DNA of 64,000 nucleotides from Opitutia bacterium Tous-C4FEB (GTDB lineage: Bacteria > Verrucomicrobiota > Verrucomicrobiia > Opitutales > Opitutaceae). The stretch is taken from positions 56,768-120,767 of the forward strand of contig NEVA01000014.1 of the NCBI GenBank assembly GCA_002304445.1, read 5' to 3'. Shown here piece after piece: positions 40,788 to 46,984 of the stretch. The first letter of the stretch is position 1. Every line of letters begins with the position of its first letter. The notes beneath the pieces are model-generated. The model searched no databases, had not been told where the DNA came from, and saw nothing but the letters and a program-made list of their open reading frames with translations. The position numbers and the translations under genes were made by a program.

Positions 40788-41708
40788 TCAAGCGAGGCCA
40801 AGGGCGGCGCGGGCGGCGGTGGCCATCACGGGGGCGGTGGTGGTGGCGGGGACGCCGGTCCAGATTTCGAGGGCTTTGGCCCCCTGATGGACGAGCATCG
40901 CAAGCCCGTTGGCGTGGGGCAGACCGAGGGCGGCAGCGCGGGCGAGGAGCGCGGTCTGCGGCGGGTTGTAGATCATATCGAAGACGGCGGCGACATTGGG
41001 CAGCGAGGTGAGATCGACGGGAATCTCGTCGGTGGGGCGGAGGCCGGCGCTGGTGGCGTTGATCAGGAGCGTGCCTGACGGCAGATCGGCGGGCGGCGCG
41101 GCCGGAGTGAAACCACGGAGCGGAATGTCGGCTGCGAGCGGGGCCAGATGGGCGAGCAGGGTGCGGAGATTGGCCTCGGTGCGGTTTGCGATCCAGAGTG
41201 AGGCGCAACGGCGTTGGAGACATTCGACGGCGGCACCGCGGGCGGCCCCGCCGGCCCCGAGCAGAACGACGTGGGCGCCGGTGAGCTCGAGGCCGAGGGT
41301 TTCGCGGATGGCCGCGGCCAGGCCGTAGCCATCGGTGTTGTGTCCGCGCCAGCCGGCGGGCGTGTGCAGCAGTGTGTTGATGGCGCCGATGGGGCGGGCG
41401 ATGGGTTCGATCGCGGCGACGCGGTCAACCGCGAGGACTTTGTGCGGGACGGTGAGGTTGAGGCCGTGGAAATTTTTCGCGTGGAAGAGATCGAGGGCGC
41501 GCGGGAGGTCATCGGGATGAACCTCGAAGCGAAAGTAACGCCAGTTGGAGAACCGGGGGGTCGCGACGGCGAGCGAGGCGAGGGCGGCGTTGTGCATGGC
41601 CGGGCTGATCGAGTGCTTGATCGGGTGGCCGAGCACGGCAAGGGCGGTGCCGGGGAAAGACCAGCCGTCGAGATCGGCGAGACTGCACGTGGGATCGGAT
41701 GGCGCCAT
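40788..41708 (-). CDS. aroE: Shikimate dehydrogenase
   Basis: VLGHPIKHSISPAMHNAAL, HGLNLTVPHK, NTDGYG, LLGAGGAARGA; start at MAPSDPTCS. Confidence 0.92.
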   Translation of the reverse strand: MAPSDPTCSLADLDGWSFPGTALAVLGHPIKHSISPAMHNAALASLAVATPRFSNWRYFRFEVHPDDLPRALDLFHAKNFHGLNLTVPHKVLAVDRVAAIEPIARPIGAINTLLHTPAGWRGHNTDGYGLAAAIRETLGLELTGAHVVLLGAGGAARGAAVECLQRRCASLWIANRTEANLRTLLAHLAPLAADIPLRGFTPAAPPADLPSGTLLINATSAGLRPTDEIPVDLTSLPNVAAVFDMIYNPPQTALLARAAALGLPHANGLAMLVHQGAKALEIWTGVPATTTAPVMATAARAALGLA

Positions 41709-41764: not shown

Positions 41765-42907
41765 TCAGGCCGGACTCGCCGGAGGAAAGAAATTGGGCAA
41801 CAGATGGCGGTCGGTCATGGGCAGGTGAAATACCGGGGTGGTGGAGCCCGACATCGGCGGAACAATCCAATCCCATTGCGCGGAAAGGGGGCGGCCGGCG
41901 CTTTCCTCTTGGGTGGCGAAGCGCATGAACTGAGCGCTTGCGGTGTGGTGGTCCACGAGGGTCACGCCGGCGGCGGCATAGGAGTGGAGGACCGCGACGT
42001 TGAGCTCCAGCAGGGCGCGGTCGCGCCAAAGGGATTGAGGGGACGACAGGTCGAGTCCGAGCCGTTGCGCGATGGCGGGGAGTTGATGATAGCGGGCTTC
42101 GTCACCCAAATCGCGGGCGCCGATCTCGGTGCCCATAAACCAACCGCTGAACGGTGCGGCCGAGAACTCGGTCGACGCGGCGATCAACCGGTGATCGGAA
42201 ATGGTGGGCAATGCATACCAGCGGAGGCCGAGATCGCCGAACCAAGCCAGCGTGGGGTGGGTGAGATGAACCTCGCGGATGAGCCCGGGGGGCAGGGGGA
42301 AGAGGCGGGGTTTTTCGCCGGCGCCGGTTATGATCCAAGGGAGCAGATCAAAAGGAGTCTTGGTCGAGGGTGGAGTCCAGCCCATGGCGAGGGCGCGTTC
42401 TGTAAAGGAAAGATTTTGGGGGTCGCCGAGAATCCGGGCTCCGTCGCGATAGCCGGCGTATCCCGCCAGCTGGCGATTTTCGATCCGCGGACCGGGCAGG
42501 TGCGCGGTGGAGGGTGCGAATACGGTCATCGTCGGACGGATCGAGCCGGAATTGGTAGCCTCGGCGATGTGCGCGCAGAGCTCGGAGAATATAGCCTCGG
42601 CTCCGGCGAGGTGCCGGCGGTCGCGCACCTTCAGACCGCGCCAGAAGAGTCGCCCGATGCAGCGGGCGTTGTTGCGCCAGGCCATGCGGCCGGCATGGGT
42701 GAGTTCGTCGCTGGTGAACGGGGCGGGTTGGCCGGCGGCGAGGGCGGCGCGGTAGATGGTGGTGCGCTCTGCGAGGGGTGCGGCCAACATGCCAAATGCG
42801 AAAGCATCGCTCAGGAAATCCGTGATTTCTTCGGTTTGAAGCGGAGGCGGCGGGCCGGGGAGCGGCGGATTCGAGGGCGCGTGAAATGGGCACTTCCGGA
42901 GGGACAT
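41765..42907 (-). CDS. nos: Nitric oxide synthase oxygenase (bacterial NOS, oxygenase domain only)
   Basis: MAWRNNARCIGRLFWRGL (haem Cys), FSGWFMGTEIGARDLGDEARY (Arg-binding Glu), DHHTASAQFMRFATQEESAGRPLSAQWDWIVPPMSGSTTPVFH. Confidence 0.92.
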   Translation of the reverse strand: MSLRKCPFHAPSNPPLPGPPPPLQTEEITDFLSDAFAFGMLAAPLAERTTIYRAALAAGQPAPFTSDELTHAGRMAWRNNARCIGRLFWRGLKVRDRRHLAGAEAIFSELCAHIAEATNSGSIRPTMTVFAPSTAHLPGPRIENRQLAGYAGYRDGARILGDPQNLSFTERALAMGWTPPSTKTPFDLLPWIITGAGEKPRLFPLPPGLIREVHLTHPTLAWFGDLGLRWYALPTISDHRLIAASTEFSAAPFSGWFMGTEIGARDLGDEARYHQLPAIAQRLGLDLSSPQSLWRDRALLELNVAVLHSYAAAGVTLVDHHTASAQFMRFATQEESAGRPLSAQWDWIVPPMSGSTTPVFHLPMTDRHLLPNFFPPASPA

Positions 42908-43069: not shown

Positions 43070-43972
43070 TCACTCGGGCTCGCGGGTGTGGGTGGTCTCG
43101 AAATCGGTGATGAAGCTGGCGAAAAGGCGGGCGCGGGCGGGTTCGCCGGAAACGGTGTAGTGGTGCACGAGGTTACGGCAGCAGCGGCAGAGGACCTCGT
43201 GAATGGCGGTGGGCATGAGATCGGCGGGCTGGGGTGAAGTGCCTTGGGCGATGAGAAAGGCGATGACCTCGTCGGGGTCGCGGAAGAGGCCGCGATCAAA
43301 CGGGTCGACGTAAAACGGAATCTCATCGTCGAAGCAGCCGACGAGGAAGTGGCCGGGCAGGCCGACGGGCTCAAGTGCGAGGCCGAGGCGTTCGGCGACC
43401 AGCAGGTAGACGAGGCTGAGAGAAATGGGCAGGCCGATGCGGCGCGTGAGGACGCTGTTGAGGAAGCTGTTTTGCGGGTCGGTGTAGTGCTCGACGTTGC
43501 CGCGAAACCCCCATTCGTGGAACATCACGCGGTTGATGATTCGGCATTTCTCCCGGGAGCTGGCGGGTTCGGCGATGAGCTCGGTGCAGCGGGCGGCGAT
43601 GGCGTCGAGCTGCTCACAGCAACGGCCCACGTCAAGGGCGGGATTGACGGTGCGGGCGAGCAGGAGGGCGCCGGTTTCCAGTTCGTAGTGAAGTGAACCG
43701 ATGAAAGTGCGGAACTCGGCGACGGGGTCGGAAAATTTCAGCTCGTTGAGAAACCAGGCGGCGTGAGCGGCGAGGGCGGGGTCGGGACCGTGACTGAGCT
43801 CGCGCAGAAACGGCGCGGTTTCAGGGCCGAGGGCCGTGAACCGGGCGAGGAGGGCGCGGCGCACGGACGGGCTGGGGTCGTCGAGTAGACGCAGCAGCGC
43901 CGAGAGTTGGGCGGAGCTCGGCGCGGTGGTTTCCAAGCGGGAAAGGCGAGAAGGAATTTTCGCGGGAGGCAA
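43070..43972 (-). CDS. SirB1/transglutaminase-like family protein
   Basis: NRVMFHEWGFRGNVEHYTDPQNSFLNSVLTRRIGLPISLSLVYLLVAERLGL. Confidence 0.82.
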   Translation of the reverse strand: MPPAKIPSRLSRLETTAPSSAQLSALLRLLDDPSPSVRRALLARFTALGPETAPFLRELSHGPDPALAAHAAWFLNELKFSDPVAEFRTFIGSLHYELETGALLLARTVNPALDVGRCCEQLDAIAARCTELIAEPASSREKCRIINRVMFHEWGFRGNVEHYTDPQNSFLNSVLTRRIGLPISLSLVYLLVAERLGLALEPVGLPGHFLVGCFDDEIPFYVDPFDRGLFRDPDEVIAFLIAQGTSPQPADLMPTAIHEVLCRCCRNLVHHYTVSGEPARARLFASFITDFETTHTREPE

Positions 43973-43999: not shown

Positions 44000-46984
44000 C
44001 TACCTTGCGGAATTGAAACGAATTTTTTCCTCTTCGCGGTCGATGAAAGGGACGCCTTTTTCCATCCACTCGGGGGCGGGGGCGCCGCGGAGGTAGTGCT
44101 CGAAGAATTGCCAAGCGCGGCGGGCGAAATCCTTTTGGTCCGCGCGGCGGCGGAGGCCGTGGAGCCCGCCGTTGTAGTTCCAGAGCCAAGCGGGTTTGTC
44201 GTAGCGCCGGAGGGCGAGGAAGAGTTCGATGCCTTGATACCACGGAACGGCGTCGTCGGCGTCGTTGTGCAGGAGCAGGAGGGGCGTGGTGATGCGCTGC
44301 ACGTGGAAGATGGGGGAGTTTTCGATGTAGAGGTGCGGCGCTTCGGCGAGGGGGCGGCCGAGGCGGCTTTGGGTTTTCTCGTATTGGAACTGACGCGGCA
44401 TGCCGGAGCCCCAGCGGATGCCGGAGTAGGCACTGGTCATGTTGCCCACCGGGGCGCCGGCTTCGGCGGCGCGGAAAAGCGAGGTTTGCGTGAGCATGTA
44501 GGCGATTTGGTAGCCGCCCCAGGAGTGGCCGGAGATGCCGATGGCCTGCTCGTCGACGAAGCCTTGGCGGACGAGGCTCTCGATGGCGGGGAGCACGGCG
44601 CGCAGCGCGCTTTGGCCGGGCTGACCCTCGGTGTAAACGATGTCGGGGGTGAGGATAAGGTAGCCGTTGCTGGTGTAGAGGGGGAAACTGACGTTGTGGC
44701 CGGGCGCTGGGGGTTTGAAGGTGTGGACGTCCTGCGACAGGCGCTCGTAGATGTAGACCATGAGCGGGTATTTTTTCGTGGGATCAAAGTCGGCGGGCTT
44801 GTAGAGCGCGGCGCTGAGTGGGACGCCGTCGGTGTTGCGGAAGGGGACGAGTTCGGCCCGGCCCCAAGCGAAGGGCGTGAGCTGGGCGCCGCCGGCGGTG
44901 ACTTGGGCGGGGGCGGCGAAGGCGGAATCGGTGGTATGGTAGTCGGGAAATTCGTCGAAGCGGGCGGCGCTCACGAGCAGGACATCGGCGTCTTTGGCGC
45001 GGGTGACGTAGCGGTAGTTTTTGTCGCCCCAGAGGAGGCGGCTCGGGGCGGTGCCGGGGGCAGCGTCGAAGCGGGTTTGGAAGAAACCGGAGGCGCGCGT
45101 CTCCTCGCTCTCCCCGCGGAGGGTGAGGGGCTTGGCGGGGTCGAGGCCGCGGTCGTCGATGTCGTCGTCGATGGGCTCGATGTTTTGGACGCGGAGCTGG
45201 GTCTTGGTCGCGCGGCCGGAGGCGGCGGTGAGATTTTTGGCGGGGCGGGCGTCGGCCCAGAGCTGCCAGACATCGTAGCGGTCGTAGATGAGGAGCGACT
45301 GGCTGTCCTTGGTCCAACCGGCTTGGCCATAGGGACCGGCGGGCGAGGGGGAATCGTGGTCTTCGTTGTGGACGGCAACGCCGAGGGTGGAGGTGAGGTT
45401 GCGCGTGGTGCCGTCGGTGGTGTTGAGCACGTGCCAGTGATTGGACTGGTAGTAGAGGGCCCAGAGGCCGTCGGGTGACCAAACCAGGGCGGTGCCGGCT
45501 CCGCCGTTTTCGCTGCGGAGTTCCTTGAGGGCGGGTTTGCGGGCGCCGGTGAGGGGATCGACGAGGAGTATGTCGGTGTAGCGGCCGTCGTAATCGGCGC
45601 GGCGGCGGTAGGCGCGGTCGTCTTGGCCGAGGGCGCGGGTGCCGTCGTCGCTGAGCGTGACGGTGGGCAGGGTGACATCGGCGAGCTGGGTGTACCGATT
45701 GGTGGCGAGATCGAGCACGCCGCGATAGGTGCGGTTGCGCTCGAGGGTCGCGCGGACTTTTTGCATGGGCTGGACGATATCGTCGTTCCAGCGCCAGAGA
45801 TCGGCGGAGACGCGGGATTCTGCGTCGAGGGCGGCGTCGGGATCGCGGGCGGGTTTGGGGGGCGGGGCGGCGGGGACGTAGAGTTTTTTGCCGTCGCGGG
45901 AGAACGCGATTGGCCCCTTGTCACTCACCGTGAAGGCGGCGGGGAAGTGGGTAGTCGTTGAGGAGACGAGCTCGGTGGCGGCGGCGGTGCCGCGTGGCCA
46001 GTGGTAGAGTTTGAAGCGCGCGGATTTCGGGGCAGGTGTGGCGGCGACGTCGTCGCGGTCGCTGACGAAGGCGGCTTGGGTCTGGTCGCGGTCCCAAGCG
46101 AGTTTCAGGTATTTGCCTTTGCCGGCGAGGAGGGCGGCGGGGGCGGTGTCGGCGGGGGCGCCGGGAGTGAAAACATAAACGCCGTTGGTGGTGCCGATTT
46201 TGGCGGCGATGGTGGTGAGGAGGGTGCGGCCGTCGCGGGCGAGGCTGTAGTCGAGGACATCGGCGAAGGTGCGCTCGGCGGGGGTGGTGGCGGCGAGGTC
46301 GATGAGGACGAGATCGGTGCCGACCTCGGGTTTGGCGGCAGCGGAGCCGGTTACGGCTCGAGGGGCGGCTTGGTCGGGATCGGAGGCGGGAGTGGTGACC
46401 TCAGGCTTTTTTTCTTCGGGTTTCGCCTCTTTGAGATAGGCGAGCCAGGCGCCGGTTCTGGTGGAGAGCTGGTAGTTTTTAACGGAGGCAACGGTGGTGG
46501 ATTTGCCGGTGGCGAGGTGGAGATAGAGGAGGCCGGGTTTCGGCATTTCGTCGGGCTTTTTCTTGGCTTTGCGGGCGGCGGCGAGGTCGGCCTTGGCGGG
46601 GTAGGTGCTGGCGACGAGGTGCGCGGAGTCGGCGGTGAAGGCGAGGCGGATGGTGGGCAGGGTGGGGGAAGCGTCGGGGTTGGCGGAGTCGGGCTGGGTG
46701 GGGGGCGGCGGGAGGGCGCCGACGGGGAGGCGTTGCTCGCGACCGGTGGCGAGTTCGCGCACGATGACTTCGCCGTCGCCGTCTTGCGGCATGAAGGAAT
46801 AGGCGAGCCAGCGACCGTCGCGCGAGAGGGTGGGCGAGGCGAGGCTGCGCCAAGCGTCGAAATCGTCGAGGGAGAGCGGGCGTTTGGCGGCGGGGGTGGC
46901 CGGAGTGGATTCGGCGGCGAAGGCGGCGGTAGTAAGGGTAAAGGCCGCGAGCAGGGGCAACGTGAAGCGGAGGAGGGATCGCAT
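44000..46984 (-). CDS. S9 family prolyl oligopeptidase
   Basis: Signal peptide, beta-propeller region, GISGHSWGGYQIAYMLTQT nucleophile elbow, HNDADDAVPWYQG. Confidence 0.9.
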   Translation of the reverse strand: MRSLLRFTLPLLAAFTLTTAAFAAESTPATPAAKRPLSLDDFDAWRSLASPTLSRDGRWLAYSFMPQDGDGEVIVRELATGREQRLPVGALPPPPTQPDSANPDASPTLPTIRLAFTADSAHLVASTYPAKADLAAARKAKKKPDEMPKPGLLYLHLATGKSTTVASVKNYQLSTRTGAWLAYLKEAKPEEKKPEVTTPASDPDQAAPRAVTGSAAAKPEVGTDLVLIDLAATTPAERTFADVLDYSLARDGRTLLTTIAAKIGTTNGVYVFTPGAPADTAPAALLAGKGKYLKLAWDRDQTQAAFVSDRDDVAATPAPKSARFKLYHWPRGTAAATELVSSTTTHFPAAFTVSDKGPIAFSRDGKKLYVPAAPPPKPARDPDAALDAESRVSADLWRWNDDIVQPMQKVRATLERNRTYRGVLDLATNRYTQLADVTLPTVTLSDDGTRALGQDDRAYRRRADYDGRYTDILLVDPLTGARKPALKELRSENGGAGTALVWSPDGLWALYYQSNHWHVLNTTDGTTRNLTSTLGVAVHNEDHDSPSPAGPYGQAGWTKDSQSLLIYDRYDVWQLWADARPAKNLTAASGRATKTQLRVQNIEPIDDDIDDRGLDPAKPLTLRGESEETRASGFFQTRFDAAPGTAPSRLLWGDKNYRYVTRAKDADVLLVSAARFDEFPDYHTTDSAFAAPAQVTAGGAQLTPFAWGRAELVPFRNTDGVPLSAALYKPADFDPTKKYPLMVYIYERLSQDVHTFKPPAPGHNVSFPLYTSNGYLILTPDIVYTEGQPGQSALRAVLPAIESLVRQGFVDEQAIGISGHSWGGYQIAYMLTQTSLFRAAEAGAPVGNMTSAYSGIRWGSGMPRQFQYEKTQSRLGRPLAEAPHLYIENSPIFHVQRITTPLLLLHNDADDAVPWYQGIELFLALRRYDKPAWLWNYNGGLHGLRRRADQKDFARRAWQFFEHYLRGAPAPEWMEKGVPFIDREEEKIRFNSAR

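Follow-up and report, generated by a model that had tools for sequence, protein, structure and literature searches.

We analysed a 64,000-nucleotide stretch of the genome of Opitutia bacterium Tous-C4FEB (contig NEVA01000014.1; hereafter the window), in which a nitric oxide synthase (NOS) gene lies within a same-strand set made up of a YggS-like gene, an S9 peptidase gene, a SirB1-like gene, NOS, aroE and a PIN gene. The features considered here are the following.

40788..41708, (-): aroE, shikimate dehydrogenase, 56 bp downstream of NOS (TIGR00507, 201.3 bits, cut-off 200.2; read from the ATG of MAPSDPTCSL)
41765..42907, (-): NOS oxygenase, 380 aa (Pfam NO_synthase, PDB 2flq, AlphaFold)
41828..41875, (-): W345, W347 to F360, pterin/haem pocket, WDWIVPPMSGSTTPVF (42-NOS alignment)
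42113..42127, (-): E261 (arginine guanidinium) to R265 (pterin side), within MGTEIGARD (42-NOS alignment)
42659..42661, (-): C83, proximal haem thiolate ligand (AWRNNARCIGR), with W77 six residues earlier (42-NOS alignment)
42881..42895, (-): K5-C6-P7-F8-H9, N-terminal CPFH tag, kept as M(1-3 residues)xCPFH in genus-mates
43070..43972, (-): SirB1-like transglutaminase-core protein, 162 bp upstream of NOS (Pfam PF13369, 2.8e-43)
44000..46984, (-): S9 prolyl-oligopeptidase family protein, upstream neighbour (Pfam PF00326, 2.2e-24)

The profile search gave a clear match of the 41765-42907 ORF to the NOS oxygenase family (Pfam NO_synthase, PF02898; E = 1.8e-125, 419 bits against a profile cut-off of 22.7 bits, profile positions 43-356 of 362), and a PDB sequence search returned 81 distinct sequences at E <= 0.001, with 2flq as the best (1.7e-99). 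A single codon lies between an in-frame stop and the Met, which makes this the earliest possible ATG. The AlphaFold model (pLDDT 90.8) recovered the NOS fold, with a TM-score of 0.89 against both eNOS and Bacillus subtilis NOS (superpositions on 9mws, TM 0.89, rmsd 1.9, and on 4d3k, TM 0.89). ORF length, profile match and PDB matches thus agree with the full-length 380-aa NOS oxygenase of the initial annotation. The identity of the ORF as a NOS is virtually certain, and chance is ruled out for the ORF and its features.

Alignment of 42 NOSs revealed that W77, R78, R82, C83, E261, R265, H320, H321, W345, W347, P350 and P351 are invariant and that F360 is kept in at least 90% of the sequences. 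The sequence blocks first quoted for this gene are present, and none of the key catalytic residues is missing. On the basis of spacing and established knowledge, we take W77, C83, E261, R265, W345, W347 and F360 to correspond to iNOS W188, C194, E371, R375, W455, W457 and F470, and the roles of E261 and R265 are likewise assumed from established NOS structures. The protein is very probably capable of NO synthesis. It would be a cytosolic, dimeric haem-thiolate enzyme oxidising L-arginine to citrulline and NO; a tetrahydropterin, probably tetrahydrofolate, would serve as its cofactor, and its electrons would come from a reductase encoded elsewhere.

The ORF encodes NOS alone, with no fused flavin or Fe-S reductase, and a Pfam scan of 39 window proteins detected no flavodoxin, NOS-type or diflavin reductase, or pterin-synthesis enzyme, which bears out the earlier description of the gene as stand-alone. 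Across the whole source genome (96% complete), the Flavodoxin_1 family had no match and FAD_binding_1 had one, in a CysJ-like 431-residue frame in which an FMN domain is not apparent. A flavodoxin of the Bacillus style is therefore an unlikely donor; better guesses would be the CysJ-like protein or a ferredoxin system. The source genome has no match to the globin family (flavohaemoglobin, NO detoxification), and no H-NOX sensor was found in 29 genomes. In another member of the bacterial family (genome G208), one contig (L058:3-2648) encodes a fused protein in which NOS follows two stretches that bind cNMP, a [2Fe-2S] domain of the BFD type and a region for FAD binding, and another contig (L059) holds a diverged NOS C-terminal half. 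A search run without a positive control found no stand-alone protein homologous to the L058 reductase in the source genome.

A NOS gene cluster at the window was considered and rejected, neighbour families being common to close relatives only across approximately 28 verrucomicrobial NOS loci. These loci were surveyed for operon partners by reading their sequences, in which neither a reductase nor a pterin gene could be recognised beside NOS. Signalling genes (response regulators, PAS proteins) lie beside NOS in some relatives and are lacking at the window locus. Response-regulator, PAS or histidine-kinase-like genes precede or face NOS in L042 (genome G001), L047 (G375), L057 (G423) and L032-L039, the response regulator of L042 standing about 48 bp from NOS on the same strand.

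NOS is present in 11 of 13 genomes of the genus, in 2 of 24 from other genera of the family and in 18 of 390 across the phylum; the window gene is the sole NOS of its genome. GTDB genomes contain NOS genes at 588 or more places, including in Actinomycetota, Bacillota, Chloroflexota, Bacteroidota and Pseudomonadota, and the gene also occurs on plasmids of Nostoc and haloarchaea. A NOS gene was reported in 2017 in Opitutae-Tous-C4FEB and other MAGs, with no toxin genes adjoining (PMC5673642). Given that report and the breadth of the GTDB distribution, the window protein is, as an enzyme, an ordinary member of a family previously known from Opitutae, and the statement that bacterial NOS is known mainly from Bacillus, Staphylococcus and Deinococcus is too narrow.

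The verrucomicrobial placement proposed earlier was sustained, the nearest relatives of the window NOS being those of Opitutae MAGs. In a quick phylogenetic tree with SH-aLRT support only, the window sequence falls within a 14-row Opitutae clade (98*), and other verrucomicrobial NOSs form several separate clades. This topology suggests that the phylum probably gained NOS more than once. In the window and two close relatives (three close species only), NOS sits exactly between the SirB1-like gene and aroE, whereas the same two genes are adjacent, approximately 100 bp apart and without NOS, in all eight other genus-mates readable at this site. The window NOS gene is therefore an insertion between these flanks. 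Since the location of NOS varies within the genus and the genus contains two NOS subclades in the tree, the gene has likely been transferred among Opitutae or was duplicated long ago. A recent phage or plasmid origin was rejected: the contig looks chromosomal, and the only phage matches were two unannotated Staphylococcus records. These NOS-bearing "phage" records (OR850403.1 and OR845001.1) are likely host DNA misfiled as phage, since one is just 1539 bp long.

Plasmid-borne NOS genes elsewhere have surroundings of their own. On Jannaschia and Novosphingobium plasmids (L215 and L216), NOS and the radical SAM gene before it share 4 bp, and a glycosyltransferase gene lies nearby; the set is conserved and possibly biosynthetic. 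A globin-domain protein directly follows NOS without a gap on a Micromonospora zamorensis plasmid (L213), which places a candidate NO oxidiser beside the NO maker. On the conjugative plasmid pC052_E of Nostoc sp. C052 (L209), NOS lies among SDR oxidoreductases, a desaturase, an aminotransferase and an SRPBCC protein, in what looks like a natural-product cluster.

The N-terminus of the window NOS reads MSLRKCPFHAPSN, as first stated, with C6 and H9 as its Cys-His pair. Residues 1-16 are predicted to be disordered (pLDDT <50, monomer model), and within them KCPFH combines the elements of a Cys-Pro haem-regulatory motif, namely CP, an aromatic residue and a nearby His in a flexible segment. Genus-mate NOSs begin MSGCPFHS, MSSCPFHP or MSQCPFHR, and other Opitutae show MDRCPFHA; a sister NOS (L062) has RRPVL where RCPFH would be expected.

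To determine how widely this tag occurs, we counted the pattern CP[FYVILMW]x(0-3)H within 90 residues before the core or in the last 15 residues of 85 NOSs, a sample non-redundant at 90% identity that was selected for its resemblance to the window and leans to its kin. The tag was present on the N-terminal side of 17 proteins, a count that takes in-frame residues upstream of the core and includes some uncertain starts, and at the C-terminal end of 9, with none carrying both. The N-terminus called unusual in the initial annotation is thus not peculiar to the window NOS, as 26 of 85 bear the tag at one end or the other. Shuffled stretches (2000 shuffles, kinship ignored) yielded means of 0.23 N-terminal and 0.07 C-terminal tags, with maxima of 4 and 2, and 352 control ORFs predicted around NOS loci yielded 1 and 0, respectively.

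C-terminal tags such as SGCPFHS (L002/L031) and GKCPYHIS (L015/L044) occur in NOSs without an N-terminal tag; KGCPVPH, SGCPVAH and GVCPVIH end the NOSs of Lentzea, Saccharothrix and Actinosynnema, and KGQCPFGH that of a Streptomycetaceae. Plasmid NOSs with RefSeq-annotated starts, outside the first sample, carry the tag C-terminally in Nostoc (ending SGCPFGH) and Deinococcus taeanensis (ending SGRCPVHR), and near the N-terminus in Rhizobium (INKCPFGH) and Micromonospora (QPTCPIAH). The plasmid NOSs of Natribaculum, Jannaschia and Novosphingobium lack it, and the Rhodococcus end has GCPASGTT only. None of the 16 NOSs from Bacillota, to which the best-studied bacterial enzymes belong, has the tag either, indicating that it is dispensable for catalysis. 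Collectively, the tag exists and recurs at either end of NOSs across phyla.

These distributions bear on two alternative explanations. The tag could be functionless, a neutral terminal pattern inherited in a few clades, and its loss in L062 and absence from Bacillota are consistent with this. However, at least 14 changes of state are needed on the NOS tree, and the many separate appearances across phyla at one end or the other, never at both in one protein, contrast with the near-absence of the pattern from control ORFs (0-1 of 352) and make neutrality very unlikely.

Alternatively, the Cys-His pair could be one half of a zinc site that bridges the dimer, a reduced version of the Cys-X4-Cys hook to which two subunits would contribute two Cys and two His. 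Animal NOS binds zinc at an N-terminal Cys-X4-Cys, a partial Cys-X4-His, for which zinc was proposed, has been described in Streptomyces turgidiscabies NOS (PMC3701330), and the window pair shortly precedes PLPGPPPP, which aligns with eNOS RPSPGPPAP. The window protein itself has only C6 and H9 (CxxH), with no second Cys before the core. The predicted disorder of the tag stretch in the monomer model also argues against zinc, as do the tags at the extreme C-terminus (9 of 85 NOSs, Nostoc and Deinococcus), where an N-terminal hook cannot form, and the same tag on KatG and P450s of unrelated folds. We consider a zinc site distinctly improbable. Metal binding by the Cys-His pair, as suggested initially, was strengthened by the haem-motif evidence and not by that for zinc.

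A search of the source genome for CP[FY]H returned 12 DNA places, against 17 for the reversed control pattern, so that the count itself is not enriched. Six lie in plausible frames: Rieske-type CPYHGW, DnaG-type CPFHNEKTPSF and ABC-transporter-type CPFHTRCP (these three named from sequence alone), NOS, and two P450s that are paralogues of each other. In three of the six the pattern is near-N-terminal, and all three are haem-thiolate enzymes (NOS and the two P450s). The KatG of the source genome begins MENPNGSTGGKCPFPHLHG; in a set of 24 complete KatGs that also covers relatives of this genome, 23 carry a CP[FV] tag at this end, with a His, variable among these tags, close by in 17 and the tag doubled in three. 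The doubled forms (L183, L193 and L196) show two tandem terminal tags of the type GKCPFPHG...GKCPVMHG. Alignments displayed for PDB KatG matches stopped short of the tag. The link to haem enzymes thus involves one pattern and three families.

NOS and KatG both act under oxidative or nitrosative stress, and the tag Cys lies in a predicted disordered, exposed stretch; the tag could thus be a redox or NO sensor whose Cys is nitrosated or oxidised by the products of the enzyme itself or by peroxide. Such a role would leave the conserved Pro, the aromatic residue or Val and the frequent His unexplained, features that Cys-Pro haem motifs do possess, and we regard it as most improbable.

A further explanation treats the tag as a recognition signal, itself not haem-binding, for a protease (a degron) or a shared partner such as a haem chaperone, ferrochelatase or redox partner. 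A short, disordered terminal tag that can sit at either end of the chain is what a degron or docking motif would look like, and Salmonella KatG, which bears the tag at its start, is degraded by Lon (PMC9037549). However, Lon recognition was mapped to KatG Arg271 and not to the N-terminus (PMC9037549), and the haem-enzyme link, together with identity to a known haem-binding core, points to haem instead. A recognition signal therefore appears unlikely.

The core of the window tag, CPFH, is identical to that of the IRP2 haem-regulatory motif. The IRP2 peptide TPILCPFHL binds haemin with a Kd of 0.8-1.8 uM (PMC10377097), near-UV measurement of the motif gave a haem Kd of 0.9 uM (PMC6350759), and a His beside CP shifts the haem complex toward six-coordination (PMC10377097; see also PMC6350759). 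Bradyrhizobium Irr carries the haem-regulatory motif GCPWHD (PMC11442138). Because KatG and two P450s of this cell bear the same tag, and because its position shifts between the N- and C-terminus in NOSs, we infer, with a probability of roughly 0.5, that the tag of the window NOS serves for transient binding of haem, in order to load it or to report it. The disordered N-terminal CPFH segment would bind haem transiently and might pass it into the apo-enzyme; alternatively, it might report haem supply through control of stability or activity.

A broader and more tentative proposal is that bacteria may label cytosolic haem-b enzymes of unrelated folds (NOS, KatG and some P450s) with one portable terminal motif, Cys-Pro-(aromatic/Val)-x(0-3)-His, which can stand at the N- or the C-terminus and would capture or sense haem. 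We found no paper on haem-regulatory motifs in NOS or KatG in the open-access literature searched. If this reading holds, which is possible rather than probable, the tag would constitute a shared haem-loading or haem-status signal not previously described for NOS, KatG or P450s. A real signal would offer a direct handle on haem enzymes by deletion, swap or use as bait and, for NOS, would show whether the supply of haem and the output of NO are linked. Should the tag prove inert, the finding reduces to another bacterial NOS in a group where NOS was already reported.

Compared with known systems, the window NOS resembles the type I bacterial NOSs of Bacillus subtilis and Geobacillus in its fold, its haem Cys and Trp, its arginine Glu and its pterin Trps, and like them it has no reductase domain. 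At the NO-gate position it has Ile (I236), which we take to be the bacterial-type residue, animals having Val. Unlike type I enzymes, it carries the terminal CPFH tag, Asp (D266) replaces Asn after the pterin Arg, F257 stands in place of the usual Tyr, and its genome has no Flavodoxin_1 match; D266 and the SGSTTPVFH loop are closer to animal NOS. The reductase-first fusion of Sorangium cellulosum belongs to the same oxygenase family, whereas the window NOS is unfused. The L058 fusion, which ends at a contig edge, resembles the Sorangium enzyme with cyclic-nucleotide domains added.

Among tagged proteins, the N-terminal GKCPFH segment of KatG represents the same tag as that of the window NOS, in the same genome and in Salmonella, on an unrelated fold. 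The IRP2 and Irr motifs (TPILCPFHL and GCPWHD) share with it CP, an aromatic residue and His. These motifs lie inside regulators, whereas the tags of NOS, KatG and the P450s are found on haem enzymes and close to a chain end, which can be either terminus.
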